Below are positions 27,144 to 34,747 of a stretch of DNA of 35,881 nucleotides, one piece after another; positions within the stretch are counted from its first letter, which is position 1; the number at the start of each line of letters is the position of its first letter. Position numbers and translations under genes: made by a program. This DNA is from Nitratidesulfovibrio oxamicus (GTDB lineage: Bacteria > Desulfobacterota > Desulfovibrionia > Desulfovibrionales > Desulfovibrionaceae), in assembly GCF_015731765.1 (NCBI RefSeq), contig NZ_VRYY01000551.1, positions 1-35,881 of the forward strand, written 5' to 3'. The notes under the pieces are model-generated. The model did not search any database and was not told the origin of the DNA. It was given only the letters and a program-made list of their open reading frames with translations.

Positions 27144-28052
27144 TCATGCCTTGCGTATGCGCATGCTGAAGTCCGCCACCGGGGCGGAGTGGGTAAGCCT
27201 GCCCACGGAGACGAAATCCGGCCCGTGGGGAGATGCCTCGGCCAGTTGCCGCAGCGTTTCCAGGGTGACGCCGCCGCTGGCCTCGGTTTCAATGCCAGTG
27301 GGCACCAATGCAAGCGACTCGCGCAGGAGCGCCAGGTCCATATTGTCCAGCATGATGCGGTCCACCTTGCAGGCCACGGCCTCGCGCACCTCGTCCAGGG
27401 TGCGGCATTCCACCTCGATGGGCGGGCAGGGCGCGTAGGCCGCGCGCAGCGCCGCCACGGCGGCCGTGATGGACCCGGCGGCGTCGATGTGGTTGTCTTT
27501 CAGCATCAGCATTTCGGCCAGGGTGCGGCGGTGGTTTTGCCCGCCACCCACCAGCACCGCGTACTTTTCGGGAAAGCGCAGCCCCGGCAGGGTCTTGCGC
27601 GTATCCAGCAGGCGGGAGGCGGTGCCGTCCAGTTCGTGCGCGTAGCGGCGGGTAAGGTTGGCGATGCCGGACAGGTGGCAGACGAAGTTCAGGATGACCC
27701 GTTCCGCCTTCAGTACCAGCCGCGCCGGGCCTTCGATGTCGGCGGCGATGGAGCCGGGCGACAGTTCGTCGCCGTCCGCGGTATGGGGAGTCCACGTCCA
27801 GCCGCCTACCACCGGGCTTTCCAGCAGGGCGGCGCAGCGTTCCATCACCAGCGGGGCAATGGGCAGCCCGGCCACCAGGGTCTGCTGCTTGGCCACGATC
27901 TGGGCGGCCAGCCGGTCAACGGGGCCGAACACGGCGTCGCTGGTAAGGTCGGGGCCGTCCTCCAGCAGGGCCAGGTCTATGGCGGCCAGCAGGTGTTCGC
28001 GGGGCTGTCCCGCAAAGAAGGCGTCGAAATCCGGTACGGTATGCGATGACAT
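27144..28052 (-). CDS. nadC: Nicotinate-nucleotide pyrophosphorylase (carboxylating) NadC
   Basis: 302 residues. It converts quinolinate and PRPP to nicotinate mononucleotide, CO2 and pyrophosphate, the third step of the pathway after NadB and NadA. Family blocks are 'LALLEDGPDLTSDAVF' near the N-terminus, 'ERVILNFVCHLSGIAN', the active-site string 'DTRKTLPGLRFPEKYAV' followed by GGGQNHR, 'MLKDNHID', 'VECRTLDEV' and the C-terminal 'EASGGVTLETLRQLAE'. ATG 28052 was chosen; an in-frame GTG five codons upstream (28067) is possible, and neither has a strong ribosome site. It is first in the nadC-nadA-nadB minus-strand group. Confidence 0.94.
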   Translation of the reverse strand: MSSHTVPDFDAFFAGQPREHLLAAIDLALLEDGPDLTSDAVFGPVDRLAAQIVAKQQTLVAGLPIAPLVMERCAALLESPVVGGWTWTPHTADGDELSPGSIAADIEGPARLVLKAERVILNFVCHLSGIANLTRRYAHELDGTASRLLDTRKTLPGLRFPEKYAVLVGGGQNHRRTLAEMLMLKDNHIDAAGSITAAVAALRAAYAPCPPIEVECRTLDEVREAVACKVDRIMLDNMDLALLRESLALVPTGIETEASGGVTLETLRQLAEASPHGPDFVSVGRLTHSAPVADFSMRIRKA

Positions 28053-28424
28053 GGATTGTGCCGCCACTGGCTAGATGATACACGCAGGGTGCCCCGCGCC
28101 GAGCCTGCGCCGCGCGGTGGGGTTTCGCCGCCTCACGGGATGCGCCGCGAACTGCGCCACGCGAGGCGTCTCGGACAGGGCGCTTGCCGTGTAGTAGGAG
28201 GCTGCCCCGCTTTCGTCAAGCCGATGCCGCCTTACCGCCACACGGAACGGGCATGTGGGGTGGCATGCTCGCGAATCTCGCCGGTCGGGGCCGGAAAGGC
28301 TGACGTTGGCGCATGACCGGCGCAGTTCGACCAGCCGGGGTGGTTTGTCCCGTTTGCGCAGTCGCGGCAGCGCGCATGCTGCACGCGGTTTACGGCTTCA
28401 CAGGATAACGGGCAGGGGGGTTGC
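28053..28424. other. Divergent intergenic region between nadC and mgtE, no gene seen
   Basis: 372 bp, GC-rich, with only short unconvincing frames. I looked for a magnesium (M-box/ykoK) riboswitch ahead of mgtE and for a NAD-related leader on the nadC side, and recognised neither. Both genes need promoters here; no clear sigma-70 boxes stand out. Confidence 0.4.
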
Positions 28425-29834
28425 ATGGCCGGGCAGGAACACGGACAAGAGCGCGGTCACGAGCACGACCGCGAATGCGTGGATGGCGCCCCCCGCGACG
28501 ACGGGGACGCCTGCCGCATCATAGTGCTGCCCGAGGAATGCCGCGATCCCGCCACGCCCGGCGAAGACGCCGAGTTCGCCCACCCCGCGGACGTTGCCGA
28601 CCACCTGGAGAATCTTTCGCTGGAACGGCAGGTGTGCGTGCTGCGCCACCTGCCCGCCGAGGACGCCGCCGACGCACTGGCCGAGCTTGACGAGCATGTA
28701 CGCGTCGACCTGCTGGAGAACCTTGATGCCGACGTGGCCGCCCAGATCCTGTCCGAAATGTCGCCCGACGACGCGGCGGACGTGCTGGACGAACTGGACG
28801 AAGACCACCGCGACGTCCTGCTGAGCAGCCTCGAAACCGAGGACGCCGAGGAAATCCGCCACCTCATGGCCTTCGACCCGGACACGGCGGGCGGGGTCAT
28901 GAACACCGAGGTGATCATCCTCGACCACGGCCTGACCGCCGACCAGGCCATCCTGCAAATCCGCGCCGAGATCGAAGACAAGGAAATTCCCTACTACGCC
29001 TATGTCGTGGATGAGCAGGACCGGCTGGTGGGCGTGCTTTCGCTGCGCGACATCATGCTGTGCAAGCCCGGCAACAAACTGCGGGACGAGGTGCGCGGCC
29101 AGGGGCTGATTTCCGTGCTGTTCGACCAGGACAAGGAAGAGGTGGCGCACCTGCTGGGCCACTACAACTTCATGGCCATGCCCGTGGTGGACTACGAGGG
29201 CCGCCTGCTGGGCGTGGTCACCCACGACGACATCATCGACATCATCCACGACGAGGCGTCCGAGGACATGCTGGGCATGGTGGGCGCGGGCACGGACGAA
29301 ACCGTGGACACGCCGTGGCACGAATCGGTGCTGAAGCGTCTGCCGTGGCTGGTCATCAACATGCTGAACTCGGCGGTGTCGGCGTCCGTCGTGTACATGT
29401 TCGAAGGGTCCATCGCCCAGATGGCGGTGCTGGCCGTGCTGATGCCCATGGTGGCCAACCAGGCGGGCAACACCGGGCAGCAGGCGCTGGCCGTGATGAT
29501 CCGGCAGTTGGCGGTAGAGCGGTTCGACCGGCGCAAGGCATGGTGGGCCGTGCTGCGCGAGGCCAAGATCGGCCTGTCCAGCGGGGCCATTGTGGCGCTG
29601 CTGGTGCTGTGCGCGGTGTGGGCGTTTGCCGGGTCGTGGAAGCTGGCCTCGGTGATGTCGCTGGCGCTGCTGCTGGACATGCTGCTGGGCGCGCTGGCCG
29701 GGGCGTCCATTCCGCTCATTTTGCGGGCCGTGGGGCGTGACCCGGCGCAGGCGTCCAGCATCTTCCTGACGGCCATCACCGACGGTGCGGGTTTTTTCAT
29801 CTTTCTGGGGCTGGCGACGCTGGTATTGTTTTAG
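28425..29834 (+). CDS. mgtE: Magnesium transporter MgtE
   Basis: 469 residues, standard MgtE architecture. An acidic N-terminal superhelical domain (about residues 45-165, e.g. 'LPAEDAADALAELDEH' and 'MSPDDAADVLDELDEDH') senses cytoplasmic Mg2+. Two CBS domains follow (about 170-295). The long linking 'plug' helix leads into five membrane helices from about residue 315 with 'PMVANQAGNTGQQALAVMIR', the conserved pore region, and 'ASSIFLTAITDGAGFFIFLG' at the end. It forms a dimeric Mg2+ channel gated shut by bound Mg2+. The first 25 residues are an extra His/Glu/Asp-rich stretch not usual for the family. The ATG follows a G-rich site. A clear terminator lies 57 nt after the stop. Confidence 0.95.
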   Translation: MAGQEHGQERGHEHDRECVDGAPRDDGDACRIIVLPEECRDPATPGEDAEFAHPADVADHLENLSLERQVCVLRHLPAEDAADALAELDEHVRVDLLENLDADVAAQILSEMSPDDAADVLDELDEDHRDVLLSSLETEDAEEIRHLMAFDPDTAGGVMNTEVIILDHGLTADQAILQIRAEIEDKEIPYYAYVVDEQDRLVGVLSLRDIMLCKPGNKLRDEVRGQGLISVLFDQDKEEVAHLLGHYNFMAMPVVDYEGRLLGVVTHDDIIDIIHDEASEDMLGMVGAGTDETVDTPWHESVLKRLPWLVINMLNSAVSASVVYMFEGSIAQMAVLAVLMPMVANQAGNTGQQALAVMIRQLAVERFDRRKAWWAVLREAKIGLSSGAIVALLVLCAVWAFAGSWKLASVMSLALLLDMLLGALAGASIPLILRAVGRDPAQASSIFLTAITDGAGFFIFLGLATLVLF

Positions 29835-29890
29835 GTGTCTTTGCCCAGGGAACGCGGGAACTTTTGCTGTTGATAGTAAAGCAAAAAACG

Positions 29891-29927
29891 AAGAGGCTCC
29901 ATCTTGCGATGGGGCCTCTTTGTTTTT
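29891..29927 (+). terminator. Rho-independent terminator after mgtE
   Basis: AAGAGGCTCCATC pairs with GATGGGGCCTCTT (one mismatch) around a TTGC loop, followed by TGTTTTT. It separates mgtE from the AT-rich cassette. Confidence 0.9.
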
Positions 29928-29955
29928 GTGTTGTATTTTATGTGTGCATTCAAGA

Positions 29956-29983
29956 TTGTTTTAGTCTCGTTGCTAAATATATC
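29956..29983 (+). promoter_or_regulatory. Putative promoter of the AT-rich two-gene cassette
   Basis: TTGTTT (29956-29961), a 16-nt spacer and TATATC (29978-29983), within a strongly AT-rich stretch upstream of the ATG at 30042. AT-rich DNA yields chance matches easily, so confidence is modest. The location between the mgtE terminator and the first cassette gene fits. Confidence 0.35.
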
Positions 29984-30041
29984 CTGATGAAGTATGCGCG
30001 ATTGTATACGTGTGGTTTTTAAAAAAACGTGAGGTGAGCAT

Positions 30042-30728
30042 ATGGTAGTGGGTAAAGTGCGCACTTCTCCTAGGATTTCATTAAATAAATTGGGAGAATA
30101 TCTTGTTTCTAAGCCAGGTCGCAGGCGTACGATTATACGGGATCAAAAGGAACCTTCTGATTTCATAGTTGCAAGGTACGCAGAAGCTAAAAGGATAATT
30201 CAAGATTGCTTAGTATCAGGTGGGGCTGATGTCAGGCCAGTGAATAGAGCGATAGAGGGCTTCTCAGGCTCTTACGAAACAAAGTGGCAAAAAGATACGG
30301 CAATACTATGCGCATCAGCCCTGCGGGCTTTTTTGAGGATGTCAGCGAGCATTCCCTTGAATGGCTTTAATCCCGTCAGAGGTATCGATAATCCAGAAAA
30401 AATGAATATTTCTGGCGTAGATGTCAGCGTGTGTCCTGAAATTATTCTGTTAGCCCCATCACAAGATAATGCAATTGTTGGTGGCGTTAAGTTGTATTTC
30501 AGTAAGAATAATCCATTAACAGAAGATGCATCAGAATTTGTGGGGTCTGTTTTGTATAGATATTTATCAGAAGTAACGTCGAGTGAGAGTGCTGTTTCAT
30601 ATAAAAATTGTACTGTGGTTGATGTGTTTGCTGGGAAGTGTTTCATTGCTCCAAAAACATATAAGCGAAATATGAATGATGTTGCGGCTGCGTGCGCAGA
30701 AATTTATCACCTTTGGAACGTTGCATAG
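30042..30728 (+). CDS. Hypothetical protein of unknown function in an AT-rich, probably acquired cassette
   Basis: 228 residues, no signal peptide or membrane helix, predicted soluble. Base composition is roughly 40% GC against well over 60% in the flanking genes, with matching codon use (many AAA, ATT and TTA), a strong sign of horizontal transfer. The N-terminus is basic ('RISLNKLGEYLVSKPGRRR', residues 11-29) and could contact nucleic acid. The C-terminal half has alternating hydrophobic stretches ('DVSVCPEIILLAPS', 'IVGGVKLYFSK', 'NCTVVDVFAGKCFIAP') that suggest a beta-rich fold. The Asp...(x)Lys spacing faintly recalls PD-(D/E)xK nucleases, but the key acidic residue before the Lys is missing, so I do not assign this. 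GAGGTGA precedes ATG 30042. The small gene 30737-30919 follows after 8 nt, so the two are surely co-expressed. I do not recognise the family. Confidence 0.8.
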   Translation: MVVGKVRTSPRISLNKLGEYLVSKPGRRRTIIRDQKEPSDFIVARYAEAKRIIQDCLVSGGADVRPVNRAIEGFSGSYETKWQKDTAILCASALRAFLRMSASIPLNGFNPVRGIDNPEKMNISGVDVSVCPEIILLAPSQDNAIVGGVKLYFSKNNPLTEDASEFVGSVLYRYLSEVTSSESAVSYKNCTVVDVFAGKCFIAPKTYKRNMNDVAAACAEIYHLWNVA

Positions 30729-30736
30729 GAGGTGTT

Positions 30737-30919
30737 ATGGCGAAGAATACTGGTGATGGACACCGTAATGGCGCGGTTAATGATCGCACTCAAGTGCAGA
30801 ATCCGAAGACTGGACAGTGGGTTAAAAGGGACACAGATACCGGGAAATTTATGGACGTTAAGCAAGATGGCAAACCTTTTAAGGGGGTTGCAAAAGAAGT
30901 TGATGACCGTAGGAAGTAA
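30737..30919 (+). CDS. Small hypothetical protein (60 aa) paired with the preceding gene
   Basis: 60 residues, very hydrophilic, with no hydrophobic core or helix-turn-helix. The middle contains 'NPKTGQWVKRDTDTGKFMD', two similar Thr-Gly-(x)-hydrophobic turns, followed by 'GKPFKGVAKE', and the end is charged. I have the impression that similar small proteins occur widely in bacterial genomes, but cannot name a family. Its ATG follows AGGAGG at ideal spacing, 8 nt after the upstream stop. It shares the low GC content. A partner, inhibitor or adaptor of the 228-residue protein is an inference from the pairing. Confidence 0.75.
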   Translation: MAKNTGDGHRNGAVNDRTQVQNPKTGQWVKRDTDTGKFMDVKQDGKPFKGVAKEVDDRRK

Positions 30920-30942
30920 GATTTATTCAACATAGCATTGTG

Positions 30943-30975
30943 AAGGGCCGGTCCCCCATGGTGGGACCGGCCCTT
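30943..30975. terminator. Bidirectional hairpin between the cassette and the ABC operon
   Basis: A 13-bp perfect stem (AAGGGCCGGTCCC with GGGACCGGCCCTT) and a 7-nt loop. It sits between two convergent units: 23 nt past the stop of the small cassette gene and 34 nt past the ABC ATPase stop on the other strand. T-tracts are only TT on either side. Confidence 0.65.
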
Positions 30976-31009
30976 GGCCGTTCGGTGCGGCAGCCCGCCG
31001 TCGCGCGGG

Positions 31010-31759
31010 CTACAGGGTGAGCACCGAGGCGTCTATGATCTCGCGGCGCATCTCCAGAAAGTGCTTGCCCGTCAGGTCGCGAGGGCGGGGCAGGTCCACG
31101 GTGTAGGTGCGCTGCACCCGTCCGGGCAGCTTGCCCTCGATGGTCACGATCCGGTCGGCCAGAAACAGCGCCTCGTCGGTGTTGTTGGTCACGAAGAGGA
31201 CGGTGCGCTTGTCGGTCTGCCAGATGCGCTCTGTTTCCTGTTCCATGAAGATGCGCGTCTGGGCGTCCAACTGGCCGAAGGGTTCATCCAGCAGCATCAC
31301 CCGTGGCTTGTTGGCGTAGGCGCGGGCAATGCCCACGCGCTGCTTCATGCCGCCGGAAAGCTGATGCGGGTAGTGCTTTTCAAAGCCGTTCAGCCCCACC
31401 AGGTCGATGTAGTGCATGGCGATGTCGCGGGCTTCGTCCCTGGGCAGGCCGCACAGCTTCGGCCCCATTTCCACGTTGCCGAGCACGGTCTTCCACGGAA
31501 ACAGCATGTACCCCTGGAACACCAAGCCCCGGTCGGCCCCCGGCCCGGTCACTGGCTCGCCGTCAAGGATGACGGTGCCGGTGGTGGGCGTTTCCAGTCC
31601 GGCGATGATGCGCAGCAGCGTGCTCTTGCCGCTCTGGCCGGGGCCGAGGATGACCACGAATTCGTTGGCCTGCACGTCGATGCTCACGTCCTCGAGCACC
31701 GGGACTTCCTGACTGCCCTTCTGGATGAAGGTCTTGCTCACGTTGCGGCATTCGATCAC
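31010..31759 (-). CDS. ABC transporter ATPase, nitrate/sulfonate/taurine type (SsuB/TauB-like)
   Basis: 249 residues, a single nucleotide-binding domain that energises the import system encoded upstream on this strand. Walker A is 'GPGQSGKST' (residues about 39-47), a variant of the usual GPSGSGKST. The Q-loop is in 'GLVFQGYMLFPWKTV', the signature is 'LSGGMKQRVGIARA', Walker B is 'VMLLDEPFGQLD'. The switch (H-loop) His normally found in a 'VTHD' string is replaced: the sequence reads 'FVTNNTDEALFLAD', with Asn at that place. ATP hydrolysis may still occur in such variants but this deserves note. It is the last gene of a four-gene minus-strand operon and ends at the hairpin at 30943-30975. 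Confidence 0.9.
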   Translation of the reverse strand: MIECRNVSKTFIQKGSQEVPVLEDVSIDVQANEFVVILGPGQSGKSTLLRIIAGLETPTTGTVILDGEPVTGPGADRGLVFQGYMLFPWKTVLGNVEMGPKLCGLPRDEARDIAMHYIDLVGLNGFEKHYPHQLSGGMKQRVGIARAYANKPRVMLLDEPFGQLDAQTRIFMEQETERIWQTDKRTVLFVTNNTDEALFLADRIVTIEGKLPGRVQRTYTVDLPRPRDLTGKHFLEMRREIIDASVLTL

Positions 31760-31801
31760 GGCGTCGTCCCTTCCTTTGGGGCTGGGGTTCCGGCGGTGGG
31801 G

Positions 31802-32680
31802 CTACAGGCCCACGATCTTGCGCTTCCACGGACACAGCTTGCGTTCCAGCGCGGTGACCAGCAGCGTGGTGCCCCACGCCGCCGCCGCGATGACCGCCAT
31901 GCCGCCGATGACCATGGCCGGTTGCGACAGGTTCATGCCCTGCACGATGATGTACCCCATGCCCGAACGGGCGCTGACCAGTTCCGCCGCCAGCACGCAG
32001 GTCCAGGCGATGCTGAGCGATATCTGCAGCCCAGCGAAGATGGCCGGGAACGAGGCGGGAAAACAGACGTGCAATATCTCGTCGCGCCGCTTGCCGCCCA
32101 GCATGCGCACCACGTCGTACAGTTCCGGCTCCACCAGGCGCACGCCGTTGTAGGCGTTGAGCAGGCACGGCACGAAGGTGCCCAGCACGATGATGAACAC
32201 CTTGGACGTTTCGCCGATGCCGAACCACAGGATGGATATGGATATCCACGAGATGGGCGGCATGGGCTTCAGCAGGTCGAACAGGGGCTTGACGATGGCG
32301 TTGACGTAGCGGTTCAGCGCCATGAACAGCCCCAGCGGCACGGCGATGGCGGCGGCGATGGAAAAGCCTATCACCACGCGCTGGGTGCTGGCCCACACGT
32401 GGCCCCAAAGGGTCAGTTCCGCCAGTTCCTCGCGGGTGAGCACCGCCAGCTGTTCCAGCACTTCATGCGGGCGGGCCAGGACGCTGCTGCCCGCGCCCAG
32501 CACGTTGGAGCGGGCCAGCCAGTCCCACAACCAGAAGAACGCTACGATGGACACGGTATGAAGGAACCAGCGGTTGGTGAGGATGCGCCCCAGGCTGATG
32601 GGGCCGCGGTCCACCACCTGCCCCACGGTCTCGTTGGCGATGGAAGAGCTTGCGGCGCTGCACGTGGCTTCCTGCGACAT
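31802..32680 (-). CDS. ABC transporter permease, SsuC/TauC-like (second permease)
   Basis: 292 residues with six predicted helices after a hydrophilic N-terminus of about 35 residues. The cytoplasmic coupling loop is around 'RMLGGKRRDEILHVCFPASFPAIFAGL' positions 200-226, the EAA-type motif of binding-protein-dependent permeases. 'DLLKPMPPISWISISILWFGIGE' at about 138-160 is typical of the SsuC/TauC/NrtB group. It follows the other permease after 3 nt, so the two are translationally linked. It probably forms a heterodimer with it, because the two differ clearly in sequence. Confidence 0.9.
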   Translation of the reverse strand: MSQEATCSAASSSIANETVGQVVDRGPISLGRILTNRWFLHTVSIVAFFWLWDWLARSNVLGAGSSVLARPHEVLEQLAVLTREELAELTLWGHVWASTQRVVIGFSIAAAIAVPLGLFMALNRYVNAIVKPLFDLLKPMPPISWISISILWFGIGETSKVFIIVLGTFVPCLLNAYNGVRLVEPELYDVVRMLGGKRRDEILHVCFPASFPAIFAGLQISLSIAWTCVLAAELVSARSGMGYIIVQGMNLSQPAMVIGGMAVIAAAAWGTTLLVTALERKLCPWKRKIVGL

Positions 32681-33552: not shown

Positions 33553-34401
33553 TTACTTCACGGTGGGCACGAGCTTCAGGAACTTGTCGGTGATGTAGTA
33601 GCCGGTCAGCAGCTTCTCGCCTTCAGCAGGCTTCAGCTTGCCGAGTTCGGTAAAGAACTTCACCAGGTCCTTCTGCCATGCCTGCACCTGGCTTTCACCA
33701 GTGGAGGCATCGAACATCTTCAGCTGTTCCTGCAAGGTGAACACCGGGTGCAGTTCCAGGTCCATCTTTGCTTCTTCTTCGGTCATGTTCAGCCCGGCCC
33801 ACTTCAGGAAACGGGCGTATTCGGGGGCCAGCTTCACGCCTTCGGCACGCAGCGCGTCGATGCCCTGGAAGTACACCTTGAGGAAACGCGCCACTTCTTC
33901 GGGGTTCTTGTCACAGTATTCCTTGTCGCCGATGAGCACGATGGGGACAAAGCCGCCCGCCGTCTTGACGTCGGAGGCAACCTTCCAGCCCTTCTTGAGG
34001 CCGTTGTACATTTGCGGGGCCCACAGCACCACGGCGTCGCCGATGCCCTTTTCGAACGCGGCCACGCACTGGGCGGGGTCCATGTTCTTGATGGTCACGT
34101 CCTTGTCGGTCAGGCCAAGCGACTTCAGCCACAGGCTCATGGCGTAGTGGCCGGACGAGATGGTGGTGGCGAGGATGGTCTTGCCCTTGACGCTTTCAGG
34201 CGAGCCGAACACGTCGGGGTGCTTGGGGTTGAAGCCCTTGGTCTTCAGGATGGGGCTGTCCGGGCGCACCAGCACCGCATTGGTCACTGACTCGTCGTTG
34301 GCGATGGCGATGAGGTAGGCGTTCTGGCGCAGCGCGCCGAACATCATGGGCACGCCGCCCGTGCCGCTGGTGCTTGAACGCTCCATCCTGCCCACGGACA
34401 T
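33553..34401 (-). pseudogene. ABC transporter substrate-binding protein, 5'-truncated
   Basis: The C-terminal roughly 268 residues of a periplasmic binding protein of the SsuA/TauA/NMT1 class are intact ('LRQNAYLIAIANDESVTNAV', 'KGKTILATTISSGHYAMS', 'DAVVLWAPQMYNGLKKG'). The signal peptide and the first strands, normally another 50-70 residues, are missing. Homology starts at about 34359 ('GGVPMMFGAL'). The 14 codons before it, back to ATG 34401, are just the antisense of a GntR gene and have no ribosome site. Without a signal peptide the product could not reach the periplasm, so I call it a pseudogene. The rest of the operon (two permeases and an ATPase) looks intact but has probably lost its natural promoter as well. 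Confidence 0.75.
34349..34365. other. Deletion junction with flanking inverted repeat
   Basis: GGCACG (34349-34354) and CGTGCC (34360-34365) form an inverted repeat around a 5-nt spacer. Coding homology switches here: left of about 34359 is binding-protein gene (minus), right of about 34361 is GntR/UTRA gene (plus), with no intervening 5' ends of either. Confidence 0.6.
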
Positions 34402-34747
34402 GGTTCCGGACTTTCTGGAAAAGAAGCTGGATACCGCGCTCTACAAGGTGCTGCACGAGGACTACGGCATACGCCTTTTGCATTCACGGCAGGAACTGGG
34501 GGCGGTGATGCCCACGGAGAATGAGCGCAAGTACCTGAAGATCGGCGACAACTGCCCGTGCATCTGGGTGGAGAGCGTAGTCTACACCGATACGGGGCGG
34601 GCCGTGGAATTCGGCCGCGCCCTGCACCGGGGCGACAAGTACCGCTTCCGCTGCGCCATTGGCGCGTACGTGTACGACAAGGATGGCACCGCCGGGCAGG
34701 CGCCGCTTGTTGGCACCCTGGTGGACTCTTCCGGTGCTGGCGGGTAG
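34361..34747 (+). pseudogene. GntR-family regulator, 3' fragment (UTRA ligand-binding domain only)
   Basis: Roughly 128 codons with the UTRA effector-domain pattern: 'PLVLERSILPTDMVPDF', 'YKVLHEDYGIRLLHSRQELG', 'CIWVESVVYTDTGRAVEFG' and the closing 'RGDKYRFRCAIG'. This is the C-terminal half of HutC/FadR-type GntR regulators, which bind a small effector. The winged-helix DNA-binding domain (normally about 70-80 residues) and the first part of UTRA are absent. The only in-frame ATG upstream (34346) lies in antisense of the binding-protein gene. The regulator was probably divergent from the ABC operon and controlled it, then lost its 5' half in the same event. A terminator follows at 34830-34861. 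Confidence 0.72.

Follow-up and report, generated by a model that had tools for sequence, protein, structure and literature searches.

A horizontally acquired two-gene cassette encoding a predicted RecB/Cas4-type protein and a PDC-S38 protein in Nitratidesulfovibrio oxamicus

In the 35,881-nucleotide stretch of N. oxamicus DNA analyzed here (the window), two small AT-rich genes lie between mgtE and an ABC operon with no defense genes beside them, which raises the question of where the pair came from and what its products do. The reading that we prefer, with the balance for and against it standing about level, is that the two genes were acquired horizontally and together form an accessory module directed against mobile elements, whether phage or plasmid DNA.

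Layout and origin of the cassette

The two genes are encoded on the same strand, with 8 nt separating the stop codon of gene 1 from the start of gene 2 and a good ribosome-binding site upstream of each (AGGTGAG for gene 1, TAGGAGGTG for gene 2), reproducing the tightly coupled genes of 228 and 60 aa reported in the preliminary description of this DNA. The AT-rich character of the cassette within GC-rich DNA is borne out as well: GC content is 0.412 in gene 1, 0.459 in gene 2, and 0.416 in the entire insert versus 0.651 in the window (41.6% versus 65%). A promoter of the cassette's own, proposed at 29956-29983, was not recovered by a consensus scan, which returned 2 sites elsewhere against 2.4 expected.

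Table 1. Coordinates of the cassette and its boundary features in the window
Feature	Position	Strand	Remarks
Gene 1	30042-30728	+	ATG start, 228 aa; RecB/Cas4/Dna2-type PD-(D/E)XK fold (predicted), degenerate motif
Gene 2	30737-30919	+	ATG start, 60 aa; PDC-S38 / phrog_12550
AT-rich insert, ~1.1 kb	29836-30942		blastn versus five genus-mates; GC 0.416
Strong intrinsic terminator	29884-29927	+	-31.8 kcal/mol, z -8.8
Bidirectional terminator hairpin of the mgtE/ABC junction	~30943-30975		folds at -32 kcal/mol

Both genes are present in the sister genome, a termite-gut Desulfovibrio MAG (G001, locus L001), whose copies share 96% (gene 1) and 98% (gene 2) amino acid identity with those of the window. 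The changes are mostly synonymous, with dN/dS of ~0.11 for gene 1 and ~0.04 for gene 2. Because the sister copies are nearly identical and differ mainly by synonymous substitutions, both genes are real and constrained; purifying selection acts on each of them.

The junction could be read by blastn in five genus-mates (G003, G004, G005, G006, and G007). Homology to these genomes reaches the mgtE stop codon, breaks at 29832-29839, and restarts at 30942, so that the insert occupies the interval from the mgtE stop codon to the terminator of the ABC operon, where the other genomes have an unrelated spacer of 67-260 bp. The site is empty in 5/5 of these informative genomes, each of which carries a short unrelated spacer instead. 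Gene 1 itself is rare, being carried by 2/8 genus, 2/288 family, 3/348 order, and 2/395 phylum genomes. Horizontal acquisition of the cassette is well supported by the five empty sites together with the presence of gene 1 in only 2/288 family genomes, in agreement with the self-contained acquired unit first proposed.

The boundaries required some reassignment. The strong hairpin on the left, earlier credited to mgtE, is indeed present but lies inside the insert and is missing at the empty sites; it was acquired along with the cassette, which it insulates from mgtE. The bidirectional hairpin on the right also exists as described, but it is ancestral, occurring at every empty site and hence in all relatives compared, and is a flank that lies outside the cassette. 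A search of the insert boundaries found no flanking repeats, as the preliminary description had remarked, and the 1.1-kb insert contains gene 1 and gene 2 only, with no mobility gene. The insert thus shows neither the integrase or transposase nor the flanking repeats by which genomic islands are recognized. Insertion borne by an IS element or an integrase was dropped as an explanation for want of repeats and a mobility gene, and a prophage remnant was dropped because the insert holds no further phage gene.

Two further observations concern the surrounding DNA. In G006 (L144, G006:C221:26000-30500), which has no insert, comparison with window 28001-32000 gives 99.6% identity toward the ABC operon but only 90.6% toward mgtE, a difference that suggests exchange by homologous recombination across the junction, its breakpoint being at the cassette site or close to it. 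Farther along, collinearity with the sister genome (L001) stops at window position 34367; in this region (33553-34747) a minus-strand ABC substrate-binding gene without an ordinary N-terminus overlaps a plus-strand ORF (34346-34747) that resembles the end of a GntR/UTRA-type regulator, an arrangement that could reflect a rearrangement or a joint in the assembly.

Predicted fold and active-site motif of the gene 1 protein

Searches with the gene 1 sequence against Pfam, PHROGs, NCBIfam, PADLOC, and PDB sequences gave no match. Remote relatives with 23-50% identity were found on viral contigs, on a planctomycete plasmid, and in the genomes G694 and G447; a further scan of viral contigs yielded no additional loci, and a weak match in G050 was rejected since it arises from the antisense strand of a clpB-like gene. 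Gene 1 thus represents a rare family outside Pfam, PHROGs, NCBIfam, and PADLOC, which annotation pipelines miss. The family alignment comprises nine members, and an AlphaFold model built from six sequences is confident (pLDDT 86.6, pTM 0.84).

When the model was compared with known structures, the strongest Foldseek and VIA-align rows all came from the RecB/Cas4/Dna2/lambda-exonuclease branch. Foldseek returned the Argonaute-associated Cas4 protein ACE1 (7.9e-6) and AdnA (2.3e-5), while VIA-align matched Dna2 (Z 10.8, rmsd 5.2, 212 residues), AdnA (Z 10.3, rmsd 5.0, 207 residues), and Cas4 (Z 10.3, rmsd 4.1, 156 residues). In BFVD, the majority of the named top matches are PD-(D/E)XK/RecB/Cas4 phage nucleases, and the predicted model contains the alpha-beta-beta-beta-alpha-beta nuclease core. 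The gene 1 product is thus predicted to have a RecB/Cas4/Dna2-type PD-(D/E)XK fold, at odds with the initial view that it has no recognizable domain.

The predicted likeness to this branch (ACE1, Cas4, AdnA/AddAB, Dna2, MGME1) extends over nearly all 228 aa, with Z up to 10.8, whereas gene 1 has no family sequence match, no helicase partner, and an altered active-site motif. As assigned by sequence alignment and predicted strands rather than by superposition, the motif residues are P132-E133 ... G148-V149-K150, and the nine-member family follows V-[ST]-V-x-P-[D/E/Q] ... G-[AG]-x-K. The first acid (P-[D/E]) and the Lys are each kept in 8/9 relatives. The second acid, two residues before the Lys, is missing in 9/9, being replaced by Gly or Ala in the eight members with the Lys, while the ninth has no Lys; the catalytic D ... 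(D/E)-x-K arrangement therefore occurs in none of the nine. Nor does the family have the four conserved cysteines of the Fe-S subgroup (Cas4, AddB, and Dna2), the only conserved ones being C190 (8/9) and C218 (9/9). Because the (D/E)-x-K acid is missing throughout while P-[D/E] and the Lys are largely retained, the alignment points to either a pseudo-nuclease that binds DNA without cutting it or a nuclease whose active site has changed, and catalysis is uncertain.

The PDC-S38 protein and its surroundings

Gene 2 was likewise thought to lack a recognizable domain, yet it clearly matches the PADLOC family PDC-S38 (PDLC05010, E=1.8e-32), with residues 1-54 aligned to profile positions 1-56/57, as well as phrog_12550 in PHROGs (E=2e-21). 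PDCs are defense candidates nominated through guilt-by-embedding, most of which still await validation (PMC12988326); a search for PDC-S38 by name found no paper naming it in the library searched. For gene 2, AlphaFold gave an unreliable model (pLDDT 51), and this low confidence suggests that the product may be largely disordered or dependent on a partner. PDB matches of gene 2 were discarded as low-complexity similarity to designed trefoils.

PDC-S38 is a widespread uncharacterized candidate defense protein, present across several phyla in chromosomes and on plasmids as well as in phages. Its relatives were found in phages and prophages of Streptococcus and Staphylococcus, in 78 plasmid records, on ~80 viral contigs, and in 12/395 phylum genomes (~3%). 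Their surroundings include XRE regulators, ImmA-type peptidases (CapH/CapP- and RmrA-like), LexA, multiubiquitin/E2/E1/JAB operons, and TIR, SIR2, and RloB genes. The family is thus embedded in defense loci (hsdRMS in G694, multiubiquitin-E1, and TIR/SIR2/RloB), although the window copy itself is not.

In three Desulfobacterota loci (L044, L046, and L047) and on a Methylomagnum plasmid (L005), the PDC-S38 gene directly adjoins multiubiquitin/E2/ThiF-JAB operons, and loci of this type often contain XRE and ImmA-type (CapH/CapP-like) genes. Several PDC-S38 relatives thus resemble RosmerTA or CapH-CapP immune operons in lying beside XRE, ImmA-type proteins, and multiubiquitin operons, whereas the window cassette has no such regulator. 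CapH+CapP, and similarly CapK+CapS, control immune operons in response to DNA damage (PMC13373217). On two viral contigs, a LexA-type repressor gene begins 9-15 nt after the PDC-S38 gene (L062:3186-3842 and L086:3180-3860), which suggests that the PDC-S38 protein is under DNA-damage control.

Association of the two genes and possible function

The pair recurs in an order-level relative (G694, locus L041), where a PDC-S38 gene precedes a gene 1 relative that is 50% identical to the window protein; the order is swapped with respect to the window. Here the pair and its neighbors are all on one strand, with hsdR, hsdM, and hsdS preceding the pair and an AAA ATPase/DUF3696 gene following it, a placement between hsdS and the ATPase that resembles type I restriction-modification operons with embedded accessory defense genes. 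The window copy differs in having no hsd genes alongside. The G694 ATPase (L041:4201-6974) matches the NsnB and HEC-03B models; the next gene, of 322 aa, has no family assignment.

In PADLOC, PDC-S38 is a single-protein candidate, whereas the window and G694 copies are paired with a specific partner gene. The gene 1 proteins that have a PDC-S38 neighbor cluster together with modest support (75/74), and the two paired lineages may share one ancestral cassette by descent. Elsewhere, PDC-S38 occurs without gene 1 at 57 independent loci, and 7/9 gene 1 lineages are without PDC-S38. The neighborhood survey thus recovers the pair a second time, inside hsdRMS, without the constant co-occurrence that the preliminary description proposed to look for; the association looks real but not obligate.

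The same counts bear on the suggestion that the cassette is a toxin-antitoxin, defense, or phage pair. The link to defense or phages was upheld (PDC-S38, hsdRMS, viral contigs), but an obligate toxin-antitoxin pair is unlikely because each partner usually occurs without the other. In a toxin-antitoxin system, gene 1 would be a nuclease toxin and the hydrophilic gene 2 product its antitoxin, or the reverse, as the coupling of two genes of unequal size and the predicted nuclease fold would allow. Moreover, several PDC-S38 neighbors match ImmA-type proteins of the RmrA/CapP kind, which serve as antitoxins in RosmerTA systems (PMC10440598). The cassette itself, however, has no ImmA/HTH antitoxin gene, neither gene matches the RosmerTA ImmA-protease/HTH antitoxin (RmrA) model in profile searches, the active-site motif of gene 1 is incomplete, and the partners are mostly apart rather than forming the obligate adjacent pair of type II systems. 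We judge a toxin-antitoxin function to be unlikely.

Separate occurrence would be expected if the two were independent defense or stress genes that share islands without a joint function, gene 2 encoding a stand-alone, DNA-damage-regulated small protein and gene 1 a phage or plasmid accessory protein. Each gene is mainly found alone, and PDC-S38 adjoins XRE/ImmA (CapH/CapP-like), LexA, and multiubiquitin-E1 operons. Against this stand the 8-nt gap in the window and the adjacency of the genes in two lineages, in different orders, despite the scarcity of both PDC-S38 (12/395) and gene 1 (2/395, ~0.5%) among phylum genomes. We regard independence as doubtful, if less so than a toxin-antitoxin function.

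We return to the preferred reading of an accessory module directed against mobile elements. The cassette is probably a small uncharacterized anti-phage module, since it is foreign DNA, encodes a protein with a predicted nuclease fold together with PDC-S38, and recurs elsewhere inside a restriction-modification operon. Analysis results back the foreign origin, the predicted fold, and the defense association, whereas the molecular mechanism, and the idea that the two proteins act together, are inferences. By analogy with Cas4, Dna2, AdnA/AddAB, and the lambda and RecE exonucleases, the gene 1 product might engage DNA ends or single-stranded DNA arising from phage entry, replication, or restriction. 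The PDC-S38 protein is probably translated from the gene 1 message and would act in the response as co-factor or regulator rather than as an obligate antitoxin, because its relatives are found in many loci without gene 1. As a more tentative possibility, somewhat ahead of independence of the two genes, the cassette could represent a two-component anti-phage system of a new kind, pairing a catalytically reshaped RecB/Cas4-type protein with PDC-S38 and working either independently or in addition to type I restriction. If so, the small PDC-S38 protein would serve as a general adaptor or trigger across several unrelated immune operons (restriction, multiubiquitin, CapH/CapP-controlled). In the cassette, PDC-S38 has a specific partner whose fold can be read; the whole unit is a minimal 1.1 kb and its empty site is clean, which makes PDC-S38 function directly testable.

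The genomic surroundings of gene 1 relatives are the setting of defense or counter-defense cargo. Relatives occur on four independent viral contigs and on plasmids: one adjoins a phage integrase (L022), one follows a Mu portal gene (L014), and another lies near GmrSD_N+HNH and an IS1595 transposase (L026). These locations, along with PDC-S38 in Streptococcus and Staphylococcus prophages, would also suit a phage- or plasmid-derived maintenance or anti-defense module, in which gene 1 protects the element by DNA-end processing or anti-restriction and not the host. The G694 copy, however, is embedded in a complete hsdRMS operon, which puts it on the side of the defending host, and accessory genes on phages often defend against rival phages, which also counts against element maintenance; we find that reading the least probable of those considered. 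One further relative, on a Rhizobium gallicum plasmid (L019:3642-4372), has genes for Fic and type I restriction endonuclease in its vicinity; its frame is disrupted, the gene being split over two frames and probably decayed.
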